From positions 1 to 37,103 of IMG/VR virus record IMGVR_UViG_3300042516_000552: DNA of 37,103 bases; one strand, written 5' to 3'. Positions 1,117 through 32,254 of this stretch are shown one piece after another. Every line of letters starts with the position of its first letter. Position 1 is the first letter of the stretch. The notes under the pieces were generated by a model. The model saw only the letters and a program-made list of their open reading frames with translations. It did no database searches and was not told where the DNA came from. The position numbers and the translations under genes were made by a program. The DNA comes from a virus.

Positions 1117-1122
1117 TGAATA

Positions 1123-1153
1123 GCCCCCGGTCATAAGCCGGGGGCATCTTTTT
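1123..1153 (+). terminator. Rho-independent terminator after the capsid gene
   Basis: An 8-bp GC stem, GCCCCCGG (1123-1130) and CCGGGGGC (1138-1145), closes a 7-base loop and is followed by ATCTTTTT. It sits 6 bases after the capsid stop and only 12 bases before the next start. It may therefore be leaky and reduce, not end, late transcription into the tail genes. Confidence 0.85.
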
Positions 1154-1165
1154 AAGGAGATTCAA

Positions 1166-1489
1166 ATGGCTGCTGCATCCGCAATCACTTCCCGTCGCGG
1201 GAATGACCAATTCCGAGGTATCTTTTCTGACACCTGGGCTATTACTTGCACTTTGGACACTGCTGAAATTGCAGACCAAGCTGCGGCGACTGACACCGTG
1301 GCTGTCCCTGGCGTTGCCTTGGGCGATATGGTGATCGGCATGTCGGCTGGTGTGAGCGAGGCTGGCGTTGTTCGCCGCGCCTACGTTTCCGCTGCTGGCG
1401 TTGTGACTATTGCCACAACCAACACAACTGGCGCTGCCGTTAACTTGGCGTCTACGACTGTTAAGTTGGTCATTGGCCGCATGGTCTAA
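1166..1489 (+). CDS. Putative capsid-associated (decoration-like) structural protein
   Basis: A 107-residue protein, low in charge and rich in Ala, Val, Thr and Gly. Its alternating hydrophobic strands (VAVPGVALGDMVIGMSAG, then GVVTIATTNTTGAAVNL) predict an all-beta fold. It begins MAAASAITSRRGNDQFRG, with AAGGAG ahead of the ATG. Small beta proteins placed directly after the coat gene between two hairpins often decorate the capsid or bind at the head-tail connection. The role is inferred from position and composition; I do not recognise a named family. Confidence 0.6.
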   Translation: MAAASAITSRRGNDQFRGIFSDTWAITCTLDTAEIADQAAATDTVAVPGVALGDMVIGMSAGVSEAGVVRRAYVSAAGVVTIATTNTTGAAVNLASTTVKLVIGRMV

Positions 1490-1494
1490 ACGAC

Positions 1495-1513
1495 AGGGGG
1501 CCTAGTGCCCCCT
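1495..1513 (+). terminator. Hairpin terminator, probably partial
   Basis: AGGGGGC (1495-1501) and GCCCCCT (1507-1513) form a 7-bp stem around CTAGT, followed by TTCTA. The T-run is short, so termination is likely incomplete. It is the second such hairpin within 400 bases and lies in the gap between two late genes. Confidence 0.6.
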
Positions 1514-1531
1514 TTCTACAGAAAGAAAATC

Positions 1532-1747
1532 ATGGCTACATATCGTTGTTTGGCAAGTGGTAATACGGTGACGTTCACTTTGCAACACGACATTGACTCG
1601 ATGCGCGGCCACGGCGGCTACGTTCTGGTCGATGAGCAAGGCGAGCAAGTGCCGGTCCAAGAGGCCAGCAAAGAGTTACCAATGACGGCCCCAACGCCGG
1701 TAAAGCGCATGGGTCGCCCTCGTAAGGCAGTTGAAGCAATCATCTAA
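1532..1747 (+). CDS. Small hypothetical protein with AT-hook-like tail
   Basis: A 71-residue protein starting MATYRCLASGN. I chose the ATG at 1532 because the in-frame GTG upstream (1505) lies within the terminator hairpin. The N-terminal half looks like a small beta unit (TVTFTLQHDI). Near the C-terminus is KRMGRPRKA, an AT-hook-like GRP core flanked by basic residues. It precedes three very basic small proteins, so a role in binding packaged DNA or in head completion is possible but unproven. No family recognised. Confidence 0.6.
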   Translation: MATYRCLASGNTVTFTLQHDIDSMRGHGGYVLVDEQGEQVPVQEASKELPMTAPTPVKRMGRPRKAVEAII

Positions 1748-1757
1748 GGAGCACATC

Positions 1758-1907
1758 ATGCCAATGGTCGGAACAAAGAAGTTTGCCTACACACCCAAGG
1801 GCAAAAAAGAAGCCAAAGAGATGTCGATGAAGTCGGGCAAGCCCGTCAAGTCCATGCCTGTTCGCGGCTCTCGCACCGCAACCAACAAAGCCAAAAAAGG
1901 CTACTGA
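1758..1907 (+). CDS. Small Lys-rich basic protein (49 aa)
   Basis: A 49-residue protein, MPMVGTKKFAYTPKGKKEA onward, with about one third Lys/Arg and no predicted globular core. AAGGAG lies ahead of the ATG at 1758. Its TGA stop overlaps the next ATG (TGATG). Similar short basic proteins follow the coat gene in other environmental podoviruses, where they are thought to be virion-associated. A nucleic-acid-binding or capsid-lining role is inferred from charge only. Confidence 0.65.
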   Translation: MPMVGTKKFAYTPKGKKEAKEMSMKSGKPVKSMPVRGSRTATNKAKKGY

Positions 1908-2053
1908 TGAAGCCCGGCTTGTACAGCAACATCGCAGCCAAGAAAGAACGCATCAAAGCCGGTTCTGGCGAGAAGATGCGCAAGCCCGGCACCAAGGGTG
2001 CTCCAACAGCCGCTGCCTTCAAGGCTGCGGCTAAGACGGCTAAAAAGAAATGA
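1907..2053 (+). CDS. Small Lys/Ala-rich basic protein (48 aa)
   Basis: A 48-residue protein beginning MKPGLYSNIAAKKERI and ending with AAAKTAKKK, a histone-H1-like Ala/Lys tail. Its ATG overlaps the stop of the gene before it and its stop overlaps the ATG of the gene after it. It is therefore translated as part of a tightly coupled run of three basic proteins. No family recognised; DNA condensation or virion association is the most natural guess. Confidence 0.65.
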   Translation: MKPGLYSNIAAKKERIKAGSGEKMRKPGTKGAPTAAAFKAAAKTAKKK

Positions 2054-2343
2054 AAACCCCAGCCTGGCAACGCAAAGAAGGACAATCCAAGACCGGAGGC
2101 TTGAACGCCAAGGGCCGGGCGTCTTATAATGCGTCAACCGGGGGCGATCTCAAAGCCCCCGTGAAGTCGGGCGACAACCCTCGTAGGGCCTCCTTCTTAG
2201 CACGCATGGGCAATATGCCTGGGCCTGAGATGAAAGACGGTAAGCCTACCCGGCTACTCTTGTCTCTGAAGGCTTGGGGCGCATCGTCCAAGGAAGACGC
2301 CAAGGCGAAAGCCAAGGCCATCTCAGCCAGGAACAAGAAATGA
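2050..2343 (+). CDS. DUF6321-like basic phage protein
   Basis: A 97-residue basic protein with the run TPAWQRKEG, GGLNAKGRASYN, APVKSGDNPRRASFLARMG, a short PGPEMKDGKPTRL link and LKAWGASSKEDAKAKAKAI. From memory this matches the DUF6321 family found in aquatic phages and plasmid-like elements; function unknown. It overlaps both neighbours by 4 bases (ATGA). The even spread of Arg/Lys and the conserved Trp and Gly residues suggest a nucleic-acid-binding structural protein. The family name is recalled and was not checked by a search. Confidence 0.7.
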   Translation: MKTPAWQRKEGQSKTGGLNAKGRASYNASTGGDLKAPVKSGDNPRRASFLARMGNMPGPEMKDGKPTRLLLSLKAWGASSKEDAKAKAKAISARNKK

Positions 2344-2672
2344 GACCCATATCCGTCGGCATCAACCCCACTGCTGGGACGACCACCACGGTCTACACCG
2401 TGCCGACGGGGTATTACGCGCTGTTCAATCTGCTGTACGTCCACAACACCGGGGCCAACAACAAGTTTCTGACCGTGCAGTGGTTCGACGCCAGCGCAAA
2501 CACCAGCATCGACATCTTGACGCAAGTGCCGTACACAGCCAAGCAGTACACGCAGTTCAGCAACGCCTATATCGTCTTTGAAGAAGGCGACCAGCTACGC
2601 GTTACGCCAGAGTCCACCAGCGCGTTTGCGATCATTGCCACCTTTGAACAAATCGGATTGACACGCCAATGA
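2340..2672 (+). CDS. Hypothetical structural protein (small beta domain)
   Basis: A 110-residue protein starting MRPISVGINPTAGTTTTVY at an ATG that overlaps the previous stop. It is rich in beta strands (TVYTVPTGYYALFNLLYVHNTG and FLTVQWFDASANTSID), with no charged helices, and looks like a compact beta-sandwich. It lies between the basic head proteins and the tail adaptor, so a head-completion or collar role is likely. An upstream in-frame start at 2274 would read through the preceding gene and is rejected. No family recognised. Confidence 0.6.
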   Translation: MRPISVGINPTAGTTTTVYTVPTGYYALFNLLYVHNTGANNKFLTVQWFDASANTSIDILTQVPYTAKQYTQFSNAYIVFEEGDQLRVTPESTSAFAIIATFEQIGLTRQ

Positions 2673-3316
2673 CCTACCTTCAACTTATCAATGATGTGCT
2701 GGTCCGACTGCGCGAGACGCAGGTGTCGTCCAGCAACGAAACGGCTTACTCAACACTGATCGGGCGGTTTGTCAACGACGCCAAGCGCCAGATTGAGGAC
2801 GCGTTCAGTTGGAACGTGCTGGGCCAGACGGTGACAATCACCACCACGCCTGGCACCTATGTCTACTCGCTGACTGGCTCTGGCCAGAAGTTCCAAGTCA
2901 TGGACGCGCTGAACACGACCGCCAACGTCGGTCTGCAAAACATCAGCTTCGTGCAGATGAACCGCTTTCAGAACTTGGTGCCTGCGATCAGCGGTATCCC
3001 CGAATACTACAGTTTTGACGGCGTGGACGGCAACGGCGACACCAAGGTGGTGCTGTACGCCCGCCCAGATAACGTCTACACCATCCCTTTCGCGCTGACT
3101 ATTCCTCAAGCGCCTTTGGCCTCTGACAACACGCTGGTGCTGGTGTCTGACGCGCTGGTCGTGCAAAACGCCTACGCTCGGGCGTTGGTCGAGCGCGGTG
3201 AAGACGGCGGCTTAAACTCATCTGAGGCGTACAACTTGTACCGTGGGATGTTGGCCGATCAGATTGCGCTGGAGGGCACCCGCTATCCAGAGAACCAAGA
3301 GTTTGTTGCCATATGA
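2669..3316 (+). CDS. Tail adaptor (P22 gp4 / T7 gp11-like)
   Basis: A 215-residue protein with an N-terminal helix and ring-adaptor pattern, MTYLQLINDVLVRLRE, then GRFVNDAKRQIEDAFSWNVL. A beta insert (VTITTTPGTYVYSLTG) and a long C-terminal helix (NAYARALVERGEDGG) follow. This helix-Trp-beta-insert layout is typical of the first connector ring bound to the portal in podoviruses. It overlaps the next gene by 4 bases, and that gene is gp10-like, which gives the classic adaptor-then-nozzle order. Confident on role, less so on exact family. Confidence 0.75.
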   Translation: MTYLQLINDVLVRLRETQVSSSNETAYSTLIGRFVNDAKRQIEDAFSWNVLGQTVTITTTPGTYVYSLTGSGQKFQVMDALNTTANVGLQNISFVQMNRFQNLVPAISGIPEYYSFDGVDGNGDTKVVLYARPDNVYTIPFALTIPQAPLASDNTLVLVSDALVVQNAYARALVERGEDGGLNSSEAYNLYRGMLADQIALEGTRYPENQEFVAI

Positions 3317-4857
3317 GCCAAGCCCTCCAGACCGCAAGCATCTCAGCGCCAGGCTTTTTTGGCCTGAATACGCAAGACTCGCCACTGGACTTGGCGGCTG
3401 GCTTTGCCTTGGTCGCAACGAATTGCATCATCGACCAGTACGGTCGCATCGGCTCGCGTAAGGGCTGGGCGCGAGTCAACTCGTCGTCCGGCGCTCTTGG
3501 GGCAAACGATGTGGGCGTCATCCACGAGCTGGTGCAGGCTGACGGTACGCTGACGATCCTGTTTGCGGGCAACAACAAGCTGTTCAAGCTGGACGGCTCC
3601 AACGCCGTGTCTGAGTTGACCTACGGGGGCGGGGGTGTAGCACCCACGATCACGGCCAGCAACTGGTCGGTGGCTTCCCTTAACGGCATCACCTACTTCT
3701 TCCAGACTGGCCACGACCCGCTGATCTTCGATCCAGCCGTTAGCACGACGACCTACCGCCGCGTCAGCGAAAAGTCAGGCTACGTCGGCACGGTCCCTGC
3801 GGGCAACATCGTGATCTCGGCCTTTGGTCGCCTGTGGGTTGCAGACACCGCAAGCGACAACGTGACGGTGTTCTTTTCTGACTTGTTGGCGGGCCATGTG
3901 TGGAGTACGGGGACATCTGGCTCACTGAACATCGACCGCGTGTGGCCAAACGGCTCAGATGAGGTGACTGGCCTAGCAGCCCACAACGGCTTTCTGATCA
4001 TCTTTGGCAAGCGCCAGATTCTGGTCTACGCCAACGCCACGACACCGGCCACGATGAGCCTGAGCGACACGGTGGGTGGCATTGGCTGCATCGCCCGCGA
4101 CTCCATTCAGAGCACCGGCAAGGACATCTTATTCTTGTCCAACTCGGGCATCCGGTCGTTCGCCAGAACTATCGTCGAGAAGTCAGCTCCTCTTGGCGAC
4201 TTGTCCAAGAACGTGCGCAGCGACTTTATGTCGATTGTGGCTGGCGAGACGTTGGCCAACATCAAGTCGGTGTACTCAGAAGCAGAGGCGTTCTATCTGC
4301 TGACGCTGCCGTCGGTCAAAGAGGTTTATTGCTTTGATACCCGCGTGCAGTTGCAAGACGGCTCGTTCAGGATCACAGTCTGGAACTTGATTGAGCCAAC
4401 GGCACTGCTCTCTCGCCGCAACGGCGACGTGTTGATCGGCAAGAACGGCTACGTCGGCAAGTACAGCACCTACCAAGACCACACCACGGCCTACCGGATG
4501 CAGTACTACACCAACCACGCCGACTTGGGCAACCAGAACGTCACGTCGCTGCTCAAGCGCTTGAAGGTGGTGGTGATCGGCGGCACAAACCAGTTTGTGA
4601 CCATGAAGTGGGCTTTTGACTTCAGCACCAACTACCTGTCGTCCAACGCGCTGATCCCAACGCAAGGCGTGTCCGAATACGGCATTGGTGAGTACGACAT
4701 CGCTCAGTATTCAGATGGCGTGGCCTTGCAAACTTTAAGCGTGCAAGCCTCTGGCAGCGGTAAAATCGTGCAAACCGGATACGAGTCCAACATCAGCGGC
4801 GCCCCGCTGTCGATTCAGCGGATTGAGATTCAGTCTAAAGACGGGAAAATGTCATGA
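3313..4857 (+). CDS. Tail nozzle / DNA-stabilisation protein (P22 gp10-like)
   Basis: A 514-residue, almost entirely beta-strand protein. It starts SAPGFFGLNTQDSPLDLAAGFALVATNCIIDQYGRIGSRKGW. That is the hallmark N-terminus of gp10-type nozzle and stabilisation proteins (GLNTQ.SP, then N...D..G....R.GW). The middle holds blade-like repeats (LAAHNGFLIIFGKRQILVY, then DILFLSNSGIRSF) consistent with a beta-propeller. It would extend the tail tube below the adaptor and plug DNA in the filled head. It overlaps both neighbours by 4 bases, so production is coupled to adaptor and fibre. Confidence 0.78.
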   Translation: MSQALQTASISAPGFFGLNTQDSPLDLAAGFALVATNCIIDQYGRIGSRKGWARVNSSSGALGANDVGVIHELVQADGTLTILFAGNNKLFKLDGSNAVSELTYGGGGVAPTITASNWSVASLNGITYFFQTGHDPLIFDPAVSTTTYRRVSEKSGYVGTVPAGNIVISAFGRLWVADTASDNVTVFFSDLLAGHVWSTGTSGSLNIDRVWPNGSDEVTGLAAHNGFLIIFGKRQILVYANATTPATMSLSDTVGGIGCIARDSIQSTGKDILFLSNSGIRSFARTIVEKSAPLGDLSKNVRSDFMSIVAGETLANIKSVYSEAEAFYLLTLPSVKEVYCFDTRVQLQDGSFRITVWNLIEPTALLSRRNGDVLIGKNGYVGKYSTYQDHTTAYRMQYYTNHADLGNQNVTSLLKRLKVVVIGGTNQFVTMKWAFDFSTNYLSSNALIPTQGVSEYGIGEYDIAQYSDGVALQTLSVQASGSGKIVQTGYESNISGAPLSIQRIEIQSKDGKMS

Positions 4858-5921
4858 GTAATTACGTTCAAAGTACCAATTTCGCCACCAAGGACGCTCT
4901 GCCGTCTGGTGATCCGCTAAAGATCGTCAAGGGCACCGAGATCAACACGGAGTTCAACAACATCGCTGTTGCCGTGGCGACTAAGGCTGACCTCAACTCG
5001 CCGACATTGGTAACCCCCGCGCTTGGCACACCTTCAAGCGGCGTAATGACCAACGTAACGGGTCTGCCATTGTCCACTGGTGTGACAGGCACTTTGCCTG
5101 TGGCCAACGGTGGTACTGGTGTCACCGCCTCAACTGGCACAGGCAGTGTTGTTCTGTCCAACAGCCCTACTTTGGTGACGCCTGCTTTGGGTACGCCTTC
5201 AAGCGGAACGCTGACCAACGCAACGGGTTTGCCGATTGACGGCGGTACTACCGGCACGCTGCCAGTGGCCAGAGGTGGTACAGGTGTCACAACATCCACG
5301 GGTTCGGGCAACAACGTGCTGTCTAACAGCCCTACTTTGGTGACCCCTGCTTTGGGAACCCCATCGTCGGGCAACCTGGCCAACTGCACATTTCCTACGT
5401 TGAACCAAAACACAACCGGGACTGCGGCTAACGTCACTGGCACTGTTGCGGTTGCAAACGGCGGTACAGGCGCAACGTCTTTCACCTCTGGCGCTTTGCT
5501 CAAAGGCAATGGAACTAGCGCAGTCGCTGTCGCCTCGGCTGCTGATATCGTAGGCCAAATCGGTGCAACGGCTGTTCAAAACGCAACCACAGCAGCCAAC
5601 GGCGGCGTAACTAGTGTTAACGGCAGCGCAGGCGCTGTGACCGTAAACGTACTTGGTAATGGACAGACTTGGCAAGATGTCAGTGGCTCTCGTGTCAACG
5701 GTACGTCTTACCAGAACACCACAGGGCGCTCTATTATGGTGTCTTTGGGTAATAGTTTAAATAGTGATGTACAAGTGTCGACAGACGGCAGCACGTGGAT
5801 ACAAGTGGGCCGAGAAGTTGCGGGGCAAACTTATCCAAACCAATTTATTGTGCCAAACAATCACTATTACAGAACAAGCAGTGCTGGCGGCACGCGGTTC
5901 TGGTGGTCTGAATTAAGATAA
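4854..5921 (+). CDS. Tail fibre / appendage protein with 55-residue repeats
   Basis: A 355-residue protein. After an N-terminal anchor of about 45 residues it has three copies of a 55-residue unit containing SPTLVTPALGTPSSG, TNVTGLPL and GTLPVANGGTGVT. A Gly/Ala/Val stalk follows, then a C-terminal beta domain (QVSTDGSTWIQVGREVAGQ, ending RFWWSELR) that may be the receptor-facing tip. Such PALGTPSSG/NGGTG repeats are common in trimeric fibres of proteobacterial phages. It follows the nozzle gene directly (ATGA), as expected of a tail-tip appendage. The repeat number is probably variable. Confidence 0.75.
   Translation: MSNYVQSTNFATKDALPSGDPLKIVKGTEINTEFNNIAVAVATKADLNSPTLVTPALGTPSSGVMTNVTGLPLSTGVTGTLPVANGGTGVTASTGTGSVVLSNSPTLVTPALGTPSSGTLTNATGLPIDGGTTGTLPVARGGTGVTTSTGSGNNVLSNSPTLVTPALGTPSSGNLANCTFPTLNQNTTGTAANVTGTVAVANGGTGATSFTSGALLKGNGTSAVAVASAADIVGQIGATAVQNATTAANGGVTSVNGSAGAVTVNVLGNGQTWQDVSGSRVNGTSYQNTTGRSIMVSLGNSLNSDVQVSTDGSTWIQVGREVAGQTYPNQFIVPNNHYYRTSSAGGTRFWWSELR
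4993..5450 (+). repeat. Three 165-bp in-frame tandem repeats in the tail fibre gene
   Basis: The anchor sequence coding for SPTLVTPALGTPSSG recurs with its CC(G/T)AC(A/T)TTGG core at 5001, 5166 and 5331, exactly 165 bases (55 codons) apart. Copies two and three are the closest at DNA level, so slippage or recombination could change repeat number without shifting frame. Confidence 0.85.
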
Positions 5922-5952
5922 TAAAAAAGACTTTTATGAAATTAGAGTTTGC

Positions 5953-6246
5953 ATGATCTCACACCACTTCAGCGATGGTTTGTACGCCAAAGAGATGCGG
6001 TTTACCGCAGGCGAAGCCATTCTGAAGCACACGCATGAGTTCAGTCACCTGTCGATCTTGGCCGCTGGCAAGGTGGCGGTGATGAAGGGCGAAGAGATAG
6101 AAGTCATTGAAGCGCCAGCTTGCATTGAAATCAAGGCTGGTTTGACGCACGGCGTCAAGGCGATCACGGATTGCGTTTGGTTTTGTATTCACGCCACCGA
6201 CGAGAAAGACCCGTCAAAGGTGGACGACGTTTTGATTGGAGTTTGA
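5953..6246 (+). CDS. Small cupin-fold protein
   Basis: A 97-residue single cupin domain. KHTHEFSHLSILAAGKVAVM (about residues 25-44) fits cupin motif 1 (two His, then a Gly), and AGLTHGVKAITDCVWFCIHA fits motif 2 (Gly...His). It could bind a metal through His26, His28 and the later His. Its location between the tail fibre and the internal virion proteins is unusual. It may be a virion component or a small enzyme acting on a surface sugar (inference). The ATG lacks a strong ribosome site and overlaps the stop of a six-codon leader frame at 5936. Confidence 0.7.
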   Translation: MISHHFSDGLYAKEMRFTAGEAILKHTHEFSHLSILAAGKVAVMKGEEIEVIEAPACIEIKAGLTHGVKAITDCVWFCIHATDEKDPSKVDDVLIGV

Positions 6247-6247
6247 T

Positions 6248-7708
6248 ATGCCTATTACAGCAGCCTTAATCGGTGGCGGCGCTTCCTTATTGGGGGGCCT
6301 GTTTGGCGGCAGCTCCGCCCGTAGAGCAGCGCAGACACAAGCCGCAGCGCAAGAACGCGCCGCGCAGCTAGCCGCTGAAGAAGCTAGGTTTCGTCCGGTG
6401 GGCGTCACGACGCGCTTTGGTTCGTCGCAGTTCCAGACCGACCCCCAAGGCCGCGTGTCCGGTGCCAGCTACACGCTAGACCCACAGCTCAGGGGTATGC
6501 AAGACCGCTTCTTGGGTCTGGCAGGTGGTGGACTATCGCAAGCCGAGACGGCGCAGCAGCAGTTTGCGCCCTTGCAAGGTGCAGCGCAGGGTCTGTTCGG
6601 CCTTGGCCAGCAGTACCTTAGCCAGCCCGCAGACCAGCGCCTTGGCGGCATCGCAAGCCAGTACCTGGGCGCTCAACCTGACTTCGGCGTGGGTCAGATC
6701 GGGCAGCGATTGCTTGGGCAAGGTCAAGATCAGCAGATCACAGACATCGCCCGCCAGCAGTTTGCCCCGTCGGCAGGCGCTCAGGCGTTGACCTCTCTCG
6801 GTCAGCAGTACGTGGCGCAGTCACCTCAAGAGGCCGCGCAGCAGTTTATGGCTAGCCAACAAAACCTCTTGGCCCCTAGCCGAGAGCGTCAGTTTGCGCA
6901 GCTCCAGAACCAGTTGTTCCAGACTGGCCGTGGCGGTCTGTCTGTCGGGGCCACAGGCGCACGCCCAAGCGGTGCTGCGGGCCTTGGTGCTGCCAGTCCT
7001 GAGATGGAGGCGTACTACAACGCTCTGGCCCAACAAGACGCTGGTTTGGCTGCGCAGGCCCAACAAGCCGGGCAGCAGCAAACAGCGTTTGGCGCTGGTC
7101 TGCTCGGCCAAGGCCAAGCCTTGGGTCAAGGCCAGATCGGTTTCGGGGCGGGGTTGCTCGGCCAACAGCAGGCGCAAGAAGCGCAGCGCTTGGGTCTCGG
7201 CTCGGCGTTCACGGCGCAGCAGCAAGCACTGGAGCAAGGCCGCTACGGCTTTGGTGCCGACTTGCTGGGTCGTCAAAACCAAATGGAACAGCAACGCGCA
7301 TCGTTTGGTGCCGGTCTGTTCGGCACAGGCGGCAACCTGCTCACACAAGGCTACGGCGGTCAGGCTGCGGCTTTGGGCCCGTATCAAGCGTATCTGCAAG
7401 GCGCAACTGGTTTGGAAGCCCTCGGTCAGCAGCCGCTGGAGATGGGTTCTGCTTTGGGCGGGCGTGTGGCCAACCCGACTGGCGCAAACGCGCTGTTCCA
7501 AGGCGGCAACGCGGCGGCGCAGAGCCAGTTTGCAGCGAACGCTTACAACCCGTTCGCAACAGCGCTGATCGGACTGTCGCAGAACCCTACGCTTACAAAC
7601 GCGGTTGCACGGCAATTCAGCGGCGGTTTTGCTCAACCAAACGCGGGCAATCTTGCCGGGTCGTCTTTCGCCTACGATACGGCAGGCAACGCCGTTCCTA
7701 TTATCTAA
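6248..7708 (+). CDS. Internal virion / DNA-ejection protein, Gln-Gly-Ala-rich
   Basis: A 486-residue protein. I chose the ATG at 6248 (GGAG six bases upstream) over a TTG four codons earlier. It opens with a glycine-rich hydrophobic segment (ITAALIGGGASLLGGLFGG) followed by AARRAAQTQ-like helix. It then has many repeats of FGAGLLGQ, LGQQYLSQ and QQFA spaced along a very Gln/Ala/Gly-rich body. The membrane-active start and repeated amphipathic segments fit proteins stored in podovirus heads and ejected to make a channel. It is the first of three large proteins in that place. No enzyme motif seen. Confidence 0.7.
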   Translation: MPITAALIGGGASLLGGLFGGSSARRAAQTQAAAQERAAQLAAEEARFRPVGVTTRFGSSQFQTDPQGRVSGASYTLDPQLRGMQDRFLGLAGGGLSQAETAQQQFAPLQGAAQGLFGLGQQYLSQPADQRLGGIASQYLGAQPDFGVGQIGQRLLGQGQDQQITDIARQQFAPSAGAQALTSLGQQYVAQSPQEAAQQFMASQQNLLAPSRERQFAQLQNQLFQTGRGGLSVGATGARPSGAAGLGAASPEMEAYYNALAQQDAGLAAQAQQAGQQQTAFGAGLLGQGQALGQGQIGFGAGLLGQQQAQEAQRLGLGSAFTAQQQALEQGRYGFGADLLGRQNQMEQQRASFGAGLFGTGGNLLTQGYGGQAAALGPYQAYLQGATGLEALGQQPLEMGSALGGRVANPTGANALFQGGNAAAQSQFAANAYNPFATALIGLSQNPTLTNAVARQFSGGFAQPNAGNLAGSSFAYDTAGNAVPII

Positions 7709-7718
7709 GGAGTAAGAC

Positions 7719-8969
7719 ATGGCAGAAATCGTCCAATCCCTATTCGGCGTCTCGCCGGAGATGTACCAGCAGAACCAGCAGGCAATGGCTGACCGCCAAG
7801 CACTGCAACTGGCGCAACTGACGCCTTTCCAGCAAGCGAACTTCGCCATTGGCCGTGGGGCTAACATGCTGGGCGGCGCTATCGGCGGCGCTCTTGGTGG
7901 TCAAGACCCTGAGTTGCAGCGCGTCACAGCGCGTCAGCAGATCGCACGTCAGATCGACCTGACTAACCCTGAGTCCATTCAAGAAGGTATGGCCATGCTG
8001 CAACAGGCAGGCGATACCGTGGGCTTGCAGCAGTTGGCGCAGATATTCCGTCAGCAGCAGGAAAGCGGCGCTTTGATCGCGCAGCGCACGGCTGCGGCTG
8101 CTGCTTCGACAGCGGCTGCCGGGCGTGAGCGAGCACCGCCTACAACCAACGAACTGACCAACGCCCGCGCCATCGCCGCAGCGGCAGGGCCTGAAGGCTC
8201 GCCAGCGTACAACGCTGCGTTCACCAGCGAGTACCAGCGTTTGACTGCGCCTAAAGAGGCCAAAGGTCCAGCGTTTGGTGCGGATGCTGAACGCGCTTCC
8301 AAGGCCCTATACGACAAACCTTTTGCTGATTTGACACCTACGCAAGCCGCCGTTGTAAACAAGCAACTGGAAGACCAAGGTCTTGGCCGAGCTAGGGCGG
8401 CAGCGCCGTCGTTCACACTGCCCGGTCAAAAGGCCCTGGTTGACGTCCCAGGCTTTCGCGCCAAGGTGCAGAGCACCATCGAACCGCAGTCCAAAGCGGT
8501 GTTCTCTGCCGACAATGCGCTGGCGAACATCGGCGACGCCATTACTTCCGGCAACCCGTCGTCCTACCGGGCTGCACAAGTGCAGTTCGCCAAAGCGATT
8601 GCTGGCGCTGGCGACCTGAGCCAGAAAGAATTGCGTGCTGCGGGTGCAGACCCCAGCTTGCTGGGCGGCGCTGCCGATTACTTGTCTACGCTGGCAACCT
8701 CTACGCCGACCAAAGACACAATGGAGAAGATGCGTAAGGCATTGGAAACCATCAAGCGCGTGAACACCAAAAAGGCCACCGACGAAATCACACGCCAGCG
8801 CAAGATCGCAGAGCGCAGCGGTGGTTACGATCCCGTCGCCTTGGATTTGGCATTGGACTTCCCTGAGTTCCAAACCGCGCCTGTTGCACCCCAATACGCC
8901 ACCAATCCCCAGACCAAAGAACGTATCATGTCTACTGACGGCGGCAAAACATGGACCCCAGTGAGGTAA
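7719..8969 (+). CDS. Internal virion protein (416 aa)
   Basis: A 416-residue, mainly helical protein starting MAEIVQSLFGVSPEMYQQNQQAMADRQ, with AAGGAG upstream. A short hydrophobic Gly-rich patch (GRGANMLGGAIGGALGG, about residues 48-64) is followed by Ala/Gln-rich coiled segments and a charged C-terminal half. Such a head-stored protein may be ejected with the DNA, working with its two neighbours. No catalytic motif (for example, a transglycosylase Glu motif) could be found. Role inferred from position, composition and size. Confidence 0.62.
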   Translation: MAEIVQSLFGVSPEMYQQNQQAMADRQALQLAQLTPFQQANFAIGRGANMLGGAIGGALGGQDPELQRVTARQQIARQIDLTNPESIQEGMAMLQQAGDTVGLQQLAQIFRQQQESGALIAQRTAAAAASTAAAGRERAPPTTNELTNARAIAAAAGPEGSPAYNAAFTSEYQRLTAPKEAKGPAFGADAERASKALYDKPFADLTPTQAAVVNKQLEDQGLGRARAAAPSFTLPGQKALVDVPGFRAKVQSTIEPQSKAVFSADNALANIGDAITSGNPSSYRAAQVQFAKAIAGAGDLSQKELRAAGADPSLLGGAADYLSTLATSTPTKDTMEKMRKALETIKRVNTKKATDEITRQRKIAERSGGYDPVALDLALDFPEFQTAPVAPQYATNPQTKERIMSTDGGKTWTPVR

Positions 8970-8973
8970 CAGC

Positions 8974-11613
8974 ATGGCACTACCAGCAGGATTTGTTTTA
9001 GACCCAGAATCGGCGCTGCCTTCTGGCTTTGTTCTGGACCAAGAGCCAACAGCACCAGCACCAAGCACCGGTGCAATCGCAGCAGAAGCCGCCCGTAAAG
9101 GTTTGGCAGGCAGCGCAGGCATGGTGTCGGGCACAGCCAACGTCTTATTTGACACGCTGAGTCGTCTGGGCATCAACCCCTTGGAAATGGGTATGCGTGC
9201 GGCTGGAGCGCCCGCGCAAGCCCCCGCAGCAGGCGTGGTTGACGCTTACCGTACAGGCCGCGAGGCTGTGCGCCAGCCAACCATGCAGGCGCTGGGCAGC
9301 ACAGGCGCTGCCCCTACAACTGGCGGGCAGCGAATCCTGGCCGCTGGCATTGAAGCGGCAGCGTCGCCAGAAAACTACTTGTTCCCCGCGCTGGCAGCAA
9401 CTCGCCGCATGGGGATGTTTGGCCAAGCGGTCATGCGCCCTGCCGAGCAGGTCGCCATTGGCGCTGGCGCTGAAGCTGGCGGTCAAGCTGGCGGCGCAAT
9501 TGGCGGTAAACTCGGCGGCGAAACAGGCGCAACAGTCGGTCAGATTACCGGCGGCTTGCTGGGCGGCGCTGGCTCGGCCTACGGCTTGGGCACTGCTCTG
9601 AAGGGTGCTCCGCTGGCAGGCAAAGGTTTTGATGTCGTCAAGGGCCAATGGGACAAGGTGCGCGGTACAGTCCCAGAGGACGAGCTGCTCAAGGATGTGG
9701 ACAACCGCATCAGCAACATCTTCATCGCAGCAGGCGCTGCCGACCCCAACTTCATGAAGACGCTGACCGACGCTGCCAAAGCGCAGCAAGGCGTGTCTCT
9801 CAAGGCGCCTGGTGGCGCTGCGGTGCAGATGCCCGTGTCTGCCCTGCTGGCCGACAACCCGGTCATCAACAACTTCATCCAGAACCTGTCGTCGCGTGAT
9901 CCAGTATTCCGCGCTCAGTACGGCAACCAGTACGAGGCCGCTAAGACCGCGCTGCTGCAAAACCAGATTCGCTTGTTTGGCGACCCAACCAAGGCTGTCG
10001 TCACGGCGACTGGCCCTGACTTGGCCAAGGCGCAAGCCCGCCGCGTTCGCTCGCTGGACGAGCAGATCGCCGACGCTTACAAGAGCCAGTCGGTTGACCC
10101 TACCGCGTTCGGTCAGCGCGTGTCTAATCTGGTTGCGAAAAAGGAACAAGCGGCCTACGCAGAGGTCAAGCCGCTGTACACCGAGGCGTTCAACATCGCC
10201 AAAACCAAGAATGTGGAACTGCCCGCCGGATCGGTGGACGACATCTATAACTTTGTGGCTGGCGAGCGTGCGTCTGACGTGTTCAAGACGTTCCCGTCCA
10301 TCTACAGCCGGGTGCAAGCGCGGTTCCGTCCTACAACTACCGAGCCAAGCGCCATCTTGACCGCCGAAGGCGCTCCGATGACGCCAGGCGGCAGAGAGTT
10401 CAGCGCGGCCACGATTGAGGATTTGGACTCGCTCAAGCGCGAGATCAACCGTCAGTTGAGCAAGACTGACGTGCCGACGGACATTCGACTGCTGTCTGAG
10501 CTGAAGCAGCGCGTCGGCGGTCACATCGACAGCCTGGACCCTGAGTTTGTCACCGCCTATCGCAACGCTGACAAGGCGTATCTGCAAAAGGTCGGCCTGC
10601 CTTTCGATACAGCTACTTTGGCGGCTGTGGACCGTAAGAAGTTTGTGGAGCAGATCGCCCCCGCGATCATCGGCAACAAGTCCAACGTCACCGAGTTCAT
10701 CAACGCCGTCGGGCCAGAGGGTACACAACTGGTGCGCTCGGCCTTCTTGGACAGCTTCACCAACGCCGCGCTCAAGAACGACGTTTTGGACCCCAAGGCA
10801 GCAGCCAAGTGGCTAAAGAAGAACGAAGGTGGCGTGTCGCTGGTGCCTGGCCTGCGTGATGAGTTGCAAGCCGCAACGCAAGATGTGCAGCAGTTGATTG
10901 CCCAGCGCACCCGCCTGAACACCGAGTTCCAGCGCGTGGCTGGCGACCAGATCATCAGCGCCGAGGGAATGGGCAGCGCTCAGGACTTGGTCAGCAAGAT
11001 GTACGGCGACGTCAAGTTCACCAACAAGTTCATGCAGCAGTACGGCGCGAACAAGGACTCCGTCAACGCTGTGCGGTCGTTCATGCTGGACGACTTGATC
11101 AACGCAAAAGACCCTGTCGCTGCGCTGACCGACCGCAACAACGCCGCCGTGTTCAACCGCGTCTTTGGCCCGACCTACGCTCAGAAGGTGCAGGATTTTG
11201 TGACCGTGTCAGAGCGTCTGAACAGGGACATCACCAACGTGCCGTTCAGGGGCGAGACAGTACCGAAAACGCCTATCGAGCAACTGACTGGCGTGCCGCC
11301 TGAGCAAATTCTGTCGCGCATCTACAACCCTGTGTCTGGCGCAACTTACGCCATCACATCGCTGTTCAGCAAGTTTTGGGCGAAGAAGGCGTCGGAGGCC
11401 ACCGAAGCGCGTCTCAAAGAGCTGCTGCTCAACCCAACCGACGCCGTCAAGGTCTTCCAGGCTGTCCAGCCCCGCGCCGCAGGGTTTGACCAGAAGAAGA
11501 TCCAAGACGCCATCGACGTGGGCCGCAAGTACGGCATCCAGTGGGTCGCTGACGCTGTGCAAGACCTGACAACAGGCGCTGCTCGCGGCGCTGTGCAAGA
11601 GCCGCAAGAATAA
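8974..11613 (+). CDS. Large internal virion protein (879 aa)
   Basis: The longest protein of the genome. It opens with a twice-repeated LPAGFVLDPESALPSGFVLDQE motif, a short linear repeat common at the start of phage ejection proteins. Next come a helical hydrophobic region and a Gly/Ala stretch (about residues 160-200, GAGAEAGGQAGGAIGGKLGGE) that could insert into a membrane, then some 600 residues of charged helices. It is the last gene of the forward late block and ends 3 bases before the convergent minus-strand genes. Role in DNA delivery inferred; no enzyme domain recognised. Confidence 0.65.
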   Translation: MALPAGFVLDPESALPSGFVLDQEPTAPAPSTGAIAAEAARKGLAGSAGMVSGTANVLFDTLSRLGINPLEMGMRAAGAPAQAPAAGVVDAYRTGREAVRQPTMQALGSTGAAPTTGGQRILAAGIEAAASPENYLFPALAATRRMGMFGQAVMRPAEQVAIGAGAEAGGQAGGAIGGKLGGETGATVGQITGGLLGGAGSAYGLGTALKGAPLAGKGFDVVKGQWDKVRGTVPEDELLKDVDNRISNIFIAAGAADPNFMKTLTDAAKAQQGVSLKAPGGAAVQMPVSALLADNPVINNFIQNLSSRDPVFRAQYGNQYEAAKTALLQNQIRLFGDPTKAVVTATGPDLAKAQARRVRSLDEQIADAYKSQSVDPTAFGQRVSNLVAKKEQAAYAEVKPLYTEAFNIAKTKNVELPAGSVDDIYNFVAGERASDVFKTFPSIYSRVQARFRPTTTEPSAILTAEGAPMTPGGREFSAATIEDLDSLKREINRQLSKTDVPTDIRLLSELKQRVGGHIDSLDPEFVTAYRNADKAYLQKVGLPFDTATLAAVDRKKFVEQIAPAIIGNKSNVTEFINAVGPEGTQLVRSAFLDSFTNAALKNDVLDPKAAAKWLKKNEGGVSLVPGLRDELQAATQDVQQLIAQRTRLNTEFQRVAGDQIISAEGMGSAQDLVSKMYGDVKFTNKFMQQYGANKDSVNAVRSFMLDDLINAKDPVAALTDRNNAAVFNRVFGPTYAQKVQDFVTVSERLNRDITNVPFRGETVPKTPIEQLTGVPPEQILSRIYNPVSGATYAITSLFSKFWAKKASEATEARLKELLLNPTDAVKVFQAVQPRAAGFDQKKIQDAIDVGRKYGIQWVADAVQDLTTGAARGAVQEPQE

Positions 11614-18048: not shown

Positions 18049-18095
18049 CCTTTTCTGATGCCCTGTGACAGAGGGCATTGGAAAAGGAACCCGAC

Positions 18096-18959
18096 ATGAA
18101 AACCAAACTGCATATTTCATTTTCAGGTGGACGCACCAGCGCCTACATGACCAAGCTGATGTTGGACAACTGGTCAGACCGTTACGAGTTCATCGTGACG
18201 TTTGCCAACACCGGCTTAGAGCACCCCAAGACGCTAGACTTCATCCACAACTGCGACAAGCATTTCGGTTTCAATACGGTGTGGCTTGAGTCAGTCGTGC
18301 ATCACGACCAGCGGTCAGCGCCTACGCACAAGATCGTCGATTACGCCAGCGCATCGCGCAGCGGAGCGCCGTTCGAGGAAGTGATTAAGAAGTATGGCAT
18401 CCCAAACCAAAAGTTTCCGGGTTGCACTCGCGATCTGAAGTTGTCGCCGATCAAAAGCTATCTGAAATCGTTGGGCATCAATGAGCATGAGATTCCAACA
18501 GCTATTGGCATCCGCACCGATGAGCTGCGGCGCGTCAACCCAAAAACAGCTGCTGCCCGCACGCTGATCTACCCTTTGATCAACGATTGGCCAAGCGACA
18601 AGCAGGATGTGCTTGACTGGTGGGAAGAGCAGGCGTTTGACCTTGGCATCGATGAGTTTGAGGGTAACTGCCTCGGGTGCTGGAAGAAGTCGCTGAAAAA
18701 GCACTTCATGCAGATTGAGCGCGACCCGTCAGTCTATGATTTTCACAAGCGTATGGACGCCGAGCACAAATTCACAGGGCCGCAAGAAGGCCACCGGCAT
18801 TTCTTTCGCGGTGACGTAAGCACTGCCCGGCTGTTTGAAATGTATGAAGAAAACAAAAATTCAGGAAAGCGTTTGGTAACGTCTGCGTATGAAGATGGTG
18901 GCTGCTCTGAATCTTGCGAACTGTTTGAGACTATCGTAAATGACCAAACTCTGGATTGA
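18096..18959 (+). CDS. PAPS-reductase/PP-loop family protein
   Basis: A 287-residue protein of the phosphoadenosine-phosphosulphate reductase family. It has the PP-loop SGGRTS (10-15), FANTGLEHP (37-44), a Cys110 segment (FPGCTRDLKLSP), GIRTDE (138-143), and two Cys pairs, NCLGC (192, 195) and CSESC (270, 274), that could bind iron-sulphur or zinc. I chose the ATG at 18096 (AAAGGAA upstream) over a TTG at 18078. The PP-loop family includes enzymes that activate nucleotides, thiolate tRNA, and insert DNA phosphorothioate (DndC). In phages the substrate is unknown; DNA modification is possible. It overlaps the polymerase gene by 20 bases. Confidence 0.82.
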   Translation: MKTKLHISFSGGRTSAYMTKLMLDNWSDRYEFIVTFANTGLEHPKTLDFIHNCDKHFGFNTVWLESVVHHDQRSAPTHKIVDYASASRSGAPFEEVIKKYGIPNQKFPGCTRDLKLSPIKSYLKSLGINEHEIPTAIGIRTDELRRVNPKTAAARTLIYPLINDWPSDKQDVLDWWEEQAFDLGIDEFEGNCLGCWKKSLKKHFMQIERDPSVYDFHKRMDAEHKFTGPQEGHRHFFRGDVSTARLFEMYEENKNSGKRLVTSAYEDGGCSESCELFETIVNDQTLD

Positions 18960-20920: not shown

Positions 20921-23182
20921 ATGAAAACGCTCTTGGATTATATCTGTTCGCTGGCCGCAGAGGGCGAGACTGCGCTGATCGTGCGGCAAAAGCCCATCGG
21001 CAACACATTGCAGTTCCACGCCGACGGTGCGATCAAGGCCACCTGGCCAGCGATGCTGCCCACGGCCAAGATCAAACCCGGCTGGGCCGTTTACGGCAAC
21101 ACCGCGTCGTTCATCGTTGACCGCTTCAAGGACGGTCACGTCAGCGCCAGCGCAGCAAACTGCGAATACGTGCTGGTGATGGTGCTGGATGACGTGGGTA
21201 CGGCCAAAGTGCCGAACACTTGCCCGCTGCCCCCGACTTGGATCATGGAGACCTCGCCCGGCTCGTTTCAATGGGGCTACGCCTTCAGCGAACAGCCGCG
21301 CAAGGGTGAGTTCGCCGCCGCGATCAAGGCCATTGCCGAGGCTGGTTTCACTGACAAAGGCGCGATCAACGCCGTGCGCAATTTCCGTTTGCCAGGCTCG
21401 ATCAACATGAAACCCGGCAACAACAACTTCGCCGCCCGTCTGGTGGAGTTCAACGCTGGCCGTGAGTACACCCTCGAAGAGCTGTGCAAGGCGATGAACG
21501 TCACGCCCGGCCCGGTCGAGTCGGTCTACGCCCCGGTGCGGGTGCAGGACGACGGCGGTGATGACGTGATGGCGTGGCTCTCGGATAACGGGCTGGTGCT
21601 CTCAAACATGAACCAAGAGGGCTGGCTGGGCGTGCATTGCCCGAACGCCGCCGAGCACACAGATGGCAACCCCGAGGGCCGCTACATGCCTGCAAACCGG
21701 GCGTACTGCTGCCTGCACTCGCACTGCCTGGAGCTGGATTCGTCTGTGTTCCTCAAGTGGGTGGCCGACAGTGGCGGCCCCGTCCACTCGCCCGGCCTGC
21801 GTGACGAGCTGCTGGTCAGCGCGATGGAGTCAGCCTTAAGTAAGCTACAGCCCACGCCAGAGTTCCCCAACGTGGCCGCCGCAGTGGTGGCCGAAACTGA
21901 GCGCAAGGAAATGGCGCGGGTCGAGAAGGCCGACTGGTGGGACCGTTTCGCGTATCTGCAAGACGACGACGCTTACTTCGATATGCAAGACCGCCGCGAG
22001 ATCAGTCGCAGTACGTTTAACGCCATGTTCCGGCACATCGGCTGCAAGTCCATTCACAATGGCCGCAAGGTCGAGGCGTCTTACTCGTTTGACGAACAGC
22101 GCCAGGACAAGGGCGCACAGTCGTTGGTCAGCGTGACGTACGCCGCAGGCGCAGGGACGATTGTCAACCGCGATGGCTTAACCTACGGCAACCGATGGGT
22201 CAACAGCCGCCCCCAACCAGCGCCCGGTGACGTCTCGCCGTGGCTGCGCCATGTCGAGCGACTGATCCCCGAGGAGTTCGAGCGCGAGCACCTCTTAAAC
22301 GCGCTGGCGCATAAGGTGCAGTTCCCCGGCCATAAGATCAATCACGCGATCTTGATGGGCGGCACGCACGGCTCAGGCAAAGATACGATGTTCGCACCGT
22401 TCTTTTGGGCTATTGGCGGCGATGCGAAGCGTAACTGTTCGTTGGTCAAAAACGAGGACCTGACCTCACAGTGGGGTTACGCCCTAGAGTGTGAAGTGAT
22501 GGAAATCGCTGAACTGCGCCAGGCTGACGCCAAGGACCGCCGAGCGCTGGAGAACACCCTCAAGCCCATCATCGCCGCCCCGCCTGAACTGTTGACCATC
22601 AACCGCAAGGGCTTGCACCCGTACTACGCCCTGAACCGGGTCTTCGTGGTGGCTTTTTCAAACGAGCGTGTCGCGATCAGCTTGCCCTCAGAGGACCGCC
22701 GTTGGTTTGTCCTTTGGTCAGAAGCCCCCCGCCTAACTGAGCGTGAGGCACTGGCGCTGTGGAATTGGTACAAAAACCAAAACGGGTTCCAAGCAGTCGC
22801 CCATTACCTGCACACCCGTGACGTGTCAGCGTGGAACCCAAGCGCACCCCCGCCCGTAACTGAGGCCAAGCAGATCATGATCGAACACGGCATGAGCACC
22901 GCCGAGGCGTTCATTGTGGACATGCTGCGCCGCCGTACGGGTGAATTTTCGCGGGGCGTGATTGGTTCGCCCTTCCATGCGCTGTGCGACCGTTTGCAGG
23001 GTCTCGCGCCGCAAGGCGTGAAGGTCGTTCAGGGCGCGCTATTGCACGCGCTCAAGGAGGCTGGCTGGATAGACTGTGGCCGGATTGCCGCGCATGGATA
23101 CCCGAACAAAAAGCACATCTTCCGAGCGCCTGACGTTGACCTGAGCAAGTCAGAGTTAAGGCGACTGGTCGAAAACACATAA
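20921..23182 (+). CDS. Primase-helicase (RepB-type primase plus DUF5906-like helicase)
   Basis: A 753-residue protein. The ATG at 20921 with AAAAGGA upstream is chosen over an earlier in-frame start within the polymerase gene. The N-terminal part has YVLVMVLDDVG and NFRLPGSINMKPG, typical of phage primases of the RepB/archaeo-eukaryotic type. Cys/His residues follow in HCPNAAEH and AYCCLHSHC (about 240-275), a zinc-finger arrangement. The C-terminal part has Walker A GGTHGSGKDT (480-489) and ends with helix-wing segments, as in D5/DUF5906 helicases. It would prime synthesis and unwind DNA for the polymerase just upstream. Confidence 0.85.
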   Translation: MKTLLDYICSLAAEGETALIVRQKPIGNTLQFHADGAIKATWPAMLPTAKIKPGWAVYGNTASFIVDRFKDGHVSASAANCEYVLVMVLDDVGTAKVPNTCPLPPTWIMETSPGSFQWGYAFSEQPRKGEFAAAIKAIAEAGFTDKGAINAVRNFRLPGSINMKPGNNNFAARLVEFNAGREYTLEELCKAMNVTPGPVESVYAPVRVQDDGGDDVMAWLSDNGLVLSNMNQEGWLGVHCPNAAEHTDGNPEGRYMPANRAYCCLHSHCLELDSSVFLKWVADSGGPVHSPGLRDELLVSAMESALSKLQPTPEFPNVAAAVVAETERKEMARVEKADWWDRFAYLQDDDAYFDMQDRREISRSTFNAMFRHIGCKSIHNGRKVEASYSFDEQRQDKGAQSLVSVTYAAGAGTIVNRDGLTYGNRWVNSRPQPAPGDVSPWLRHVERLIPEEFEREHLLNALAHKVQFPGHKINHAILMGGTHGSGKDTMFAPFFWAIGGDAKRNCSLVKNEDLTSQWGYALECEVMEIAELRQADAKDRRALENTLKPIIAAPPELLTINRKGLHPYYALNRVFVVAFSNERVAISLPSEDRRWFVLWSEAPRLTEREALALWNWYKNQNGFQAVAHYLHTRDVSAWNPSAPPPVTEAKQIMIEHGMSTAEAFIVDMLRRRTGEFSRGVIGSPFHALCDRLQGLAPQGVKVVQGALLHALKEAGWIDCGRIAAHGYPNKKHIFRAPDVDLSKSELRRLVENT

Positions 23183-23183
23183 A

Positions 23184-23205
23184 AAAGGGGCCGTTTGGCC
23201 CCTTT
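23184..23205. terminator. Bidirectional Rho-independent terminator
   Basis: AAAGGGGCC (23184-23192) and GGCCCCTTT (23197-23205) form a 9-bp stem with a GTTT loop. On the minus strand the stem is followed by TTTTTTAT, a strong termination signal; on the forward strand by TTTATCGTTT. It separates the converging replication operon and the minus-strand small-gene operon. Confidence 0.85.
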
Positions 23206-24538: not shown

Positions 24539-24572
24539 TACAGTGTAAAGGATATTTTTACAGATGTAAAGG
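24539..24572. promoter_or_regulatory. Two tandem dyad operators over the minus promoter
   Basis: TACA-G-TGTAAAGG starts at 24539 and TACA-GA-TGTAAAGG at 24559; each is a TACA/TGTA dyad and they lie 20 bases (two helix turns) apart. The second extends to the palindrome TTTACA-GA-TGTAAA (24557-24570). They cover the -10 and -35 of the minus promoter, so a dimeric repressor binding both would shut it. Confidence 0.6.
24542..24570 (-). promoter_or_regulatory. Promoter for short minus-strand operon
   Basis: On the minus strand TTTACA (24570-24565) and TACACT (24547-24542) are exactly 17 bases apart. The predicted start near 24535 gives a 25-base leader with AAGGAG before the ATG at 24510. Confidence 0.65.
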
Positions 24573-24607
24573 TTTTTTGTCGCGTTGGTGACAGCGTGGG
24601 CTGTTTT

Positions 24608-24659
24608 ATGGGTCATCTAGGTCACGTATGGGTCAAGTTTTTTTGGCGACTTGACCCAT
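24608..24659. repeat. TTGACCCAT-type short repeats, first cluster
   Basis: ATGGGTCA occurs at 24608, and ATGGGTCAAG (24628-24637) with CTTGACCCAT (24650-24659) makes a perfect 10-bp inverted repeat around a 12-base spacer. Further copies of ATGGGTCAA/TTGACCCAT lie at 24695 and 24833 within the same intergenic region. Confidence 0.75.
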
Positions 24660-24697
24660 GCGGAAGCTAGCGTTCATGCGGGTTTGCGGGGTGTATG

Positions 24698-24829
24698 GGT
24701 CAAATTGTCATGTTACTTTAGATGTTATAGAAAGATGTATATATATATAGGTAAACGGGCCAAGAATGGGAGCACGCCAAAAACACGCCGCGTAGGTTTG
24801 GCTAACAAAAACAGGATGACAATTTGACC
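24698..24829. repeat. 14-bp inverted repeat flanking an AT-rich core
   Basis: GGTCAAATTGTCAT (24698-24711) is the exact reverse complement of ATGACAATTTGACC (24816-24829). Between them lie 104 bases with a TA-repeat run at 24738-24749. Both arms adjoin TTGACC-type boxes. Confidence 0.8.
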
Positions 24830-24830
24830 T

Positions 24831-24846
24831 ATTTGACCCATACAAT
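24831..24846 (+). promoter_or_regulatory. TTGACC box with -10 (TACAAT) for the small regulator gene
   Basis: TTGACCCA is directly followed by TACAAT (24841-24846), six bases before the ATG at 24853. There is no clear -35, so an activator may be needed. A start point at the ATG itself would make this gene leaderless. A near copy lies at 25326-25339 before the terminase genes. Confidence 0.45.
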
Positions 24847-24852
24847 GCGGCC

Positions 24853-25074
24853 ATGGCCAGACCTTGCAAATTAGACACCGTTGAATTCCAGCGCAAATTG
24901 ACAGACCAAGACCGCGCTGTTTTGTTGACCGCCGGTCAAGGTGACTTGACACGCGGCTTCAAAGAATTGCTGTCAATTTATACAGTCTTGCACAATGCGG
25001 GTTTTCGCCCTGGCGATAACTTGGAATCGATGCTGTTTTCTGATAATGAGAATGCAATATCATTAGCAGATTGA
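24853..25074 (+). CDS. Small ribbon-helix-helix-like regulator (73 aa)
   Basis: A 73-residue protein. VEFQRKLTDQDRAVLLTAGQ then GDLTRGFKELLSIYTVLHNAG follows the pattern of small ribbon-helix-helix repressors: a beta strand, a helix, a Gly-rich turn (GQGDLTRG) and a second helix. The C-terminus is acidic. There is no visible ribosome site, and the -10 box ends six bases before the ATG. It is surrounded by repeated sites, so I infer it binds them and controls its own gene and neighbours. The fold is judged by eye; confidence moderate. Confidence 0.6.
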   Translation: MARPCKLDTVEFQRKLTDQDRAVLLTAGQGDLTRGFKELLSIYTVLHNAGFRPGDNLESMLFSDNENAISLAD

Positions 25075-25365: not shown

Positions 25366-25707
25366 GTGGAACCAAAGAAACGCGGGCGACCGCTCAAAAT
25401 GACGATCCAGAGGTACGCAGAGAACCCGCCTGCGGTGCTACCGAAGACGGATCACCAACGCATCAAGGAACTGAAAGAGCTGATGATCCGGTCTGGCGGC
25501 AAGGACGTCGCGGAGAAAGTGATCCAGATTGCGCTCAATGACGACCATCCAGGTCAGATGGCGGCGCTGAAGATGTGCATGGACAGGACGCTGCCAATAG
25601 GTATGTTCGAGAAGGACAAGTCCCAGCGCAGCGCCATCACGATCAACATCACGGGTCTGGGCGAGACGCCTAAGATAATCGAGCCAGAGGACATAAGCGA
25701 TGTCTGA
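25366..25707 (+). CDS. terS: Probable small terminase subunit
   Basis: A 113-residue protein with a GTG start and GAAAGG five bases upstream. It begins EPKKRGRPLKM, an AT-hook-like basic arm, then a helical DNA-binding-type section (TDHQRIKELKELMIRSGGKDVAEKVIQIAL) and helix GQMAALKMCMDRTL, ending in a beta hairpin (ITINITGLG). It overlaps the large terminase by 8 bases and heads the late operon, which is the main reason for the call. Small terminases choose the packaging start on the phage DNA; here that may be in the adjoining non-coding region. Confidence 0.7.
   Translation: MEPKKRGRPLKMTIQRYAENPPAVLPKTDHQRIKELKELMIRSGGKDVAEKVIQIALNDDHPGQMAALKMCMDRTLPIGMFEKDKSQRSAITINITGLGETPKIIEPEDISDV

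Positions 25708-28988: not shown

Positions 28989-28989
<1 letters not shown>
26980..28989 (+). CDS. Portal protein (P22-like)
   Basis: A 669-residue protein. The ATG at 26980 with GGGG upstream is preferred to a TTG inside the end of the terminase gene. It has the P22-type portal layout: an acidic N-terminus, [14 protein letters not shown] and [19 protein letters not shown] (about 40-70), a wing region, then a crown/stem part with [19 protein letters not shown]. It ends in a long Gln/Ala-rich helix ([19 protein letters not shown]), like the barrel of long portals. It forms the dodecameric DNA gate. Its stop overlaps the next ATG by one base. Confidence 0.85.

Positions 28990-32254
<3,265 letters not shown>

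Follow-up and report, generated by a model that had tools for sequence, protein, structure and literature searches.

Iterons facing an AT-rich core form a probable replication origin in a freshwater phage family and covary with a loop of the phage primase-helicase

Self-loading helicases that recognize an iteron origin with their C-terminal domain have been described before. In geminiviruses and iteron plasmids, the repeat sequence and a short protein segment co-vary and define compatibility. In SaPI Rep and Cch2 it is the C-terminal domain that binds the origin iterons (PMC7581432), and PMC4234260, with reference to Ziegelin & Lanka 1995 and Yeo et al. 2002, describes phage P4 alpha as binding origin repeats via a winged helix. 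The NrS-1 polymerase primes at 5'-TTTGGTTA-3' and 5'-GTGG-3' (PMC8718748); the NrS-1 genome contains two copies of an 8-nt priming site, with no iteron array described there (PMC7102993). Here we analyzed a repeat cluster in an uncultured phage genome, and conclude that it is very probably a replication origin which the phage's own primase-helicase binds and opens in the manner of P4 alpha or SaPI Rep.

The stretch of DNA analyzed, referred to as the window, is an IMG/VR virus record of 37,103 bp, classified as linear. It comes from a tailed phage and encodes a large terminase, major head protein, family-A DNA polymerase, DNA helicase and primase, and a DNA search of named phages with the cluster region gave no match. 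In the structural gene block, two long ORFs (28989-32254) contain collagen-like GPTGPTG repeats, and in the replication gene block a protein encoded at 18078-18959 has weak similarity, far below cut-off, to NCBIfam PRK08557 and PRK13795, both PAPS-reductase-like models. The cluster is intergenic, as the first-pass annotation had maintained: the first ORF of a leftward block starts at 24510, a rightward block begins with a 73-aa ORF at 24853, and nothing supports as genes the two short minus-strand ORFs that overlap it. A predicted leftward promoter, for which a similar sequence is found at the same place in relatives, overlaps the dyad TGTAAA-N7-TTTACA (24544-24562).

Between 24607 and 24842 the window carries four copies of TATGGGTCA, plus variants, in both orientations (Table 1). 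The five motif occurrences originally counted hold for ATGGGTCA; exact ATGGGTCAA/TTGACCCAT is present only four times (24628 and 24695 on the plus strand, 24651 and 24833 on the minus strand), the fifth copy being ATGGGTCAT. Over the whole window, exact TATGGGTCA has five occurrences against 0.12 expected, a number reached in 0 of 100 shuffles; four of these lie in the cluster and the remaining one (20178) is within the DNA polymerase gene. With up to one mismatch, ATGGGTCAA is only mildly overrepresented over the whole window (12 versus 7.0 expected, equaled by 4 of 100 shuffles), and the signal is therefore the clustering: the densest 342-bp stretch for GGGTCA in the window is the cluster itself. 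The variant CTAGGTCA is the main repeat in relative L195 and is present in L317 as well.

A hairpin first described as 10 bp proved slightly longer, with 11 perfectly paired positions (24628-24638/24649-24659). The 14-bp inverted repeat at 24698-24711/24816-24829 is indeed perfect and brackets TATATATATATA; extended to a 17-mer (24695-24711/24816-24832) it matches at 94%, and 24692-24705/24831-24844 form another perfect 14-bp pair. TATATATATATA, previously noted as a TA-rich core (24738-24749), is the longest pure A/T run in the window, and it falls within 24694-24753, the most AT-rich 60-bp stretch of the 37-kb record. Separately, a CATGCGGGTTTGCGGG-like sequence (24676-24690) separates the outer cluster from the inner arm. 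Similar sequences surround the iterons in most near relatives, are retained despite changes of word, and are repeated on the other side in L013, L021 and L022; a second protein site or a hairpin is possible.

Table 1. Coordinates of the repeat cluster, the proposed initiator and neighboring features in the window.
Feature	Coordinates	Strand	Remarks
Primase-helicase, proposed initiator	20921..23182	+	start inferred as ATG 20921; longest ORF from 20711
C-terminal proposed origin-binding domain, residues 712-823	22844..23179	+	model pLDDT 89.6
Loop residues 793-799 (AAHGYPN), proposed specificity element	23087..23107	+	beta-hairpin tip
Sigma-70-like leftward promoter, TTTACA-17-TACACT (predicted)	24542..24570	-	similar sequence, same place, in relatives
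Iteron TATGGGTCA, outer left cluster	24607..24615	+	copy at 24608 reads ATGGGTCAT
Variant iteron CTAGGTCA	24617..24624	+	
Iteron TATGGGTCAA	24627..24636	+	24628-24638 is the left hairpin arm
Inverted iteron ACTTGACCCAT, right hairpin arm	24649..24659	-	
Inner left arm, iteron pair TATGGGTCA-AATTGTCAT	24694..24711	+	faces core
AT core TATATATATATA, proposed duplex-unwinding element	24738..24749	.	kept in near relatives
Right arm ATGACAAT-TTGACCTAT-TTGACCCATA	24816..24842	-	mirrors left arm
73-aa ORF downstream of cluster	24853..25074	+	not the specificity partner
ORF before large terminase, putative small terminase by position	25366..25707	+	no family match

The proposed initiator combines an AEP/RepB-type primase region, a DUF5906/SF3 helicase and a C-terminal winged-helix-like domain. 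DUF5906 scores above cut-off, RepB_primase PF16793 is marginal (25.1 bits versus a cut-off of 24.3), and phage primase families match too. AlphaFold models (mean pLDDT 84.8 and 89.6), for which 51-52 sequences of the family were used, show the helicase core followed by a small domain composed of a strand, two helices and a beta-hairpin, with residues 793-799 at the hairpin tip. This strand-helix-helix-hairpin topology (pLDDT ~95) fits a winged helix, and the label rests on topology because a fold search with the C-terminal domain alone returned nothing significant (best E 0.32); the P4 domain was not among the matches listed. Foldseek matches to the helicase region include the NrS-1 helicase region (E 7e-13), pox D5/E5 and SaPI5 PriRep1 with dsDNA.

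Relatives were collected by two routes. A search anchored on the 73-aa protein covered near relatives only and gave 17 contigs with a relative of that protein, and several hundred more were reached via the large terminase and primase. Seven relatives are also found in metagenome-assembled bacterial genomes (Rhodoferax and others) and are probably phage contigs binned with their hosts. The relatives share a plan consisting of an outer cluster, an iteron pair facing an AT-rich core and a mirrored pair behind it. Tandem 8-9-bp iterons facing the core are the common layout, but the letters differ: whole repeat sets are switched to TGTTAGTCA/TGTAGTCA, TGTGGACAA, TGTTGGCTA or other words, with one word family common to most copies inside any one genome. 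L013, L017, L020 and L021 have TGTTAGTCATGTAGTCAT ... ATGACTACATGACTAACA in place of the window's TATGGGTCAAATTGTCAT ... ATGACAATTTGACC, other relatives carry TGTGGTCCATGTGGACCAT, TGTGGACAATGTGGACAAT or TGTTGGCTATGTTGGCTAT, and counterparts of the inner left arm read, for example, TGTTAGTCATGTAGTCAT or TGTGGACAATGTGGACAAT. The first-pass annotation had expected the motifs themselves to be conserved among relatives. It is the layout that is kept and not the letters, and this loss is informative because the letters change in concert with the primase.

Two further repeat families were encountered in these loci. A second conserved element, approximately TTAGTGAGCACTCACTAA/AAGTTAGT, lies downstream of the primase in L130, L131, L135, L142, L160, L252 and others; it is often multi-copy, does not track the primase loop, and is possibly a packaging or regulatory site. 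Six terminase relatives (L024, L026, L065, L080, L081, L094) have up to 8 copies of AGGGTCA(A) upstream of a distant 73-aa-like ORF, some of them along with TGTGGATAA-like sequences. The window's primase was not detected within these six loci, and the repeat set is possibly the origin of a different replication module.

For analysis of covariation, repeat words were taken by a script, blind to the protein, from inverted repeats around the AT core downstream of the primase; the finder chose TTAGTGAGCACTCACTAA in several relatives, and such arms were removed by an explicit pattern. Mutual information, computed with no preselection for all 160 columns that vary within the last 260 residues, linked iteron base 2 to H795 (0.61) and base 4 to P798 and A793. 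When full-length proteins were scanned against word class (56 sequences, 488 variable columns), A793 (0.78) and P798 (0.73) led, the next column reached 0.46, and the median was 0.15; N-terminal columns were all at or below 0.46. Loops were then sorted into five classes (residue 3 not Arg; [KR]xR; AxR; MxR; NxR), both loop and word classes being defined on the discovery set. Loop class equaled word class in 73 of 76 non-redundant discovery loci, and the other three, two ties and one mis-picked repeat, include no clean contradiction. When the loop was left out of tree building, loop class still had to change at least 18 times on the resulting tree; concordance among independent pairs was complete in four classes (8/8, 5/5, 6/6 and 3/3), with none opposed.

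Since these classes were drawn from the data, the rules were frozen and new loci were fetched. Among the new loci with Arg-type loops, the rules held for 42 of 43, compared with 34 in the best of 20,000 shuffles, which ignore relatedness. For non-Arg loops the word pattern fixed in advance proved too narrow, matching 1 of 14 held-out loci. A post hoc replacement, GTCA(A/T)ATTGTCA, was present in 14/14 non-Arg and 0/43 other loci of this held-out set, from which it had itself been derived, and in 15/18 of the first set with one false positive; it is present in the window as well. Another 33 held-out loci had no confident inverted repeat. The correspondence extends to L029, which has a loop of the L017 type and in which TAGTCA words were found afterwards, and L401, from a metagenome-assembled genome, pairs the loop ASRDHTT with TGTAAGC words. 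L399 has the loop ASREFQT with clustered TGTTGG/TGTAGG words. ASRE loops in L369 and L228 are accompanied by TGTGG words, and because of these exceptions the loop-word code is not strict. Based on these comparisons, it appears that word and loop are each largely predictable from the other in more than 100 related phages.

The window and L017 offer a natural experiment. Their primases differ at 10 of 714 residues before position 785, at 17 of 39 after it, and at 7 of 7 between 793 and 799; with this swapped loop in a near-identical primase, the word is swapped to TGTTAGTCA/TGTAGTCA. The word tracks the primase-helicase loop, and neither the putative small terminase nor the 73-aa protein. Somewhat more tentatively, we favor a reading in which the beta-hairpin tip would be an exchangeable specificity cassette with an amino-acid-to-base code, and phages would switch origin compatibility by changing the loop together with all iterons. 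The code belongs to the same proposal: Arg as third loop residue would correspond to G at iteron base 2 (TGT...), other third residues to A, C or T at that base, and loop residues one and six (K..D, A, M, N) to bases 4-6. If true, phages that are otherwise almost identical would fall into many replication groups incompatible with one another.

The site had initially been proposed to be either an origin or a master operator, with binding tests suggested for the 73-residue protein and the primase. The origin half of this proposal is upheld by the conserved layout and by a word that changes with the primase-helicase loop; the operator half, with the 73-residue protein as binder, is not supported. 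A cooperative operator of divergent promoters, to which the 73-residue protein or some other regulator of the phage would bind, would suit a cluster that sits between divergent gene blocks, has a leftward sigma-70-like site next to it (24542-24570) and ends its final iteron ~10 bp before the 73-aa start codon. We nevertheless regard it as very unlikely. The 73-aa protein is 90% identical in L013, where the word is TAGTCA, and 96-97% identical in L007-L012, where it is TCTGGGTCAA; it matches no DNA-binding family, and a copy was found near just 60 of 197 primases (some loci being truncated), leaving many primases that have such repeats with none detected nearby. An operator of this protein was therefore rejected as the main explanation, as the word does not follow it. 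Initiators often repress nearby promoters as well, so some regulation may coexist at the cluster.

Less probable still is that the covariation arises with no recognition involved, just from common descent or from linked DNA being transferred together. Loop codons and repeats are 1.5 kb apart in the window, and window-L017 DNA identity, which falls at 23051-23200, drops over both. Identical loop-word pairs nevertheless recur in separate clades, as with the MSR/MCR loops that pair with TAGTCA in L017, L252 and L259; independent pairs are never opposed, and the signal peaks at single columns within the hairpin tip.

We see hardly any chance that the cluster is a packaging site (pac or cosB) bound by a small terminase encoded just downstream. 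Residues 2-104 of the small-terminase-like ORF are unchanged (100% identity) in L017 and L021 while the word differs, the primase loop did change together with the word, and an AT-rich core between facing iterons is origin-like. The putative gene does lie ~0.5 kb beyond the cluster, and lambda cosB likewise has repeated terminase sites, but packaging was rejected as the main explanation because the word does not follow the putative small terminase. Equally slim is the prospect of single-strand priming sites read by the N-terminal primase-polymerase domain instead of duplex sites for the C-terminal domain: the NrS-1 polymerase sites TTTGGTTA and GTGG resemble some words (PMC8718748), but words differ between L017 and the window despite only 10/714 differences before residue 785, no N-terminal column exceeds 0.46 versus 0.78 for A793, and priming alone was rejected as the main explanation.

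We return, then, to an origin served by the primase-helicase. The features of an iteron origin found here are clustered short non-coding repeats, an adjacent AT-rich element and a candidate initiator from the same replicon, designated by covariation. In the mechanism we propose, the C-terminal winged-helix-like domain would bind the 8-9-bp iterons of both arms in a sequence-specific manner, as the covariation suggests, with the tip of the beta-hairpin ('wing'), residues 793-799, reading the variable iteron bases. Two sets of subunits, facing across TATATATATATA, would form SF3 helicase rings that melt the core, load onto single strands and prime, and the phage family-A DNA polymerase would extend the primers, so that replication would start at the cluster. 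The steps from binding to priming are proposed by analogy with SaPI Rep, Cch2 and P4 alpha.

GC skew, suggested by the first-pass annotation as a check, gave no change at the site and lends the origin no support: there was no turning point at the cluster in the window or in nine relatives. The cumulative skew minimum of the window is near 17.5 kb, ~7 kb from the cluster, and several other family records have a detrended minimum ~6-8 kb before the primase end. A turning point is usual for origins without defining them, and short strand-biased phage genomes are poor cases. On balance, skew in the window is negative over 0-16 kb, though ORFs 142-11613 run rightward, and positive afterwards.

Initiator-iteron origins are usually known from few cases, while here more than 100 natural loop-word pairs link a few residues to particular bases, including close relatives that differ mainly in loop and word. 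Within the open-access literature searched, and as far as those searches show, the freshwater phage family, an origin distant from the primase gene and a loop-to-word relation across more than 100 pairs are new; no report of a loop-to-word code for SaPI Rep/Cch2 was found there. These pairs would give a natural code for a replication starter recognizing its own origin. They make it testable how a protein and its many site copies change together and whether replication specificity sets the compatibility of co-infecting phages, and would allow origins to be located from sequence alone in hundreds of uncultured phage genomes.

Among named phages, Caudoviricetes sp. ctNMl277 (MW202483.1, Manatee Spring) has the most similar primase (50% identity); its record is circular, 38.8 kb long, and contains ATGTAAAC 8 times within ~260 bp at a comparable place. 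It differs in having another word and another loop (FAPELSTKRH), and no origin is annotated in the stretch examined. The initiators of geminiviruses and iteron plasmids are unrelated rolling-circle Rep or plasmid proteins and do not have an SF3 primase-helicase wing. NrS-1 primase-polymerase (6k9c, 6lrb, 6k9e), a phage replication protein like that of the window, is the best match to the helicase region by sequence (E 0.04) and by fold (E 7e-13), with 16% identity. P4 alpha with its ori/crr resembles the system proposed here in joining a primase, an SF3-type helicase and a C-terminal origin-binding domain in one protein that acts with origin repeats (PMC4234260). Its primase is of the bacterial Toprim type, whereas the window protein has an archaeo-eukaryotic/RepB-type region; P4 has both ori and crr, a second crr-like cluster was not seen in the window, and the words are unrelated. 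SaPI Rep (SaPIbov1, SaPI5 PriRep1) and SCCmec Cch2 are likewise self-loading helicases whose C-terminal domain recognizes iterons downstream of the gene (PMC7581432), and SaPI5 PriRep1 with dsDNA (7pds) is a fold match to the window's helicase region. The SaPI and SCCmec elements are staphylococcal satellites and cassettes with the origin directly downstream of rep, whereas the window is a full tailed phage of freshwater bacteria, and in this family the proposed origin lies 1.4-3 kb downstream of the primase, in the window beyond a leftward gene cluster.
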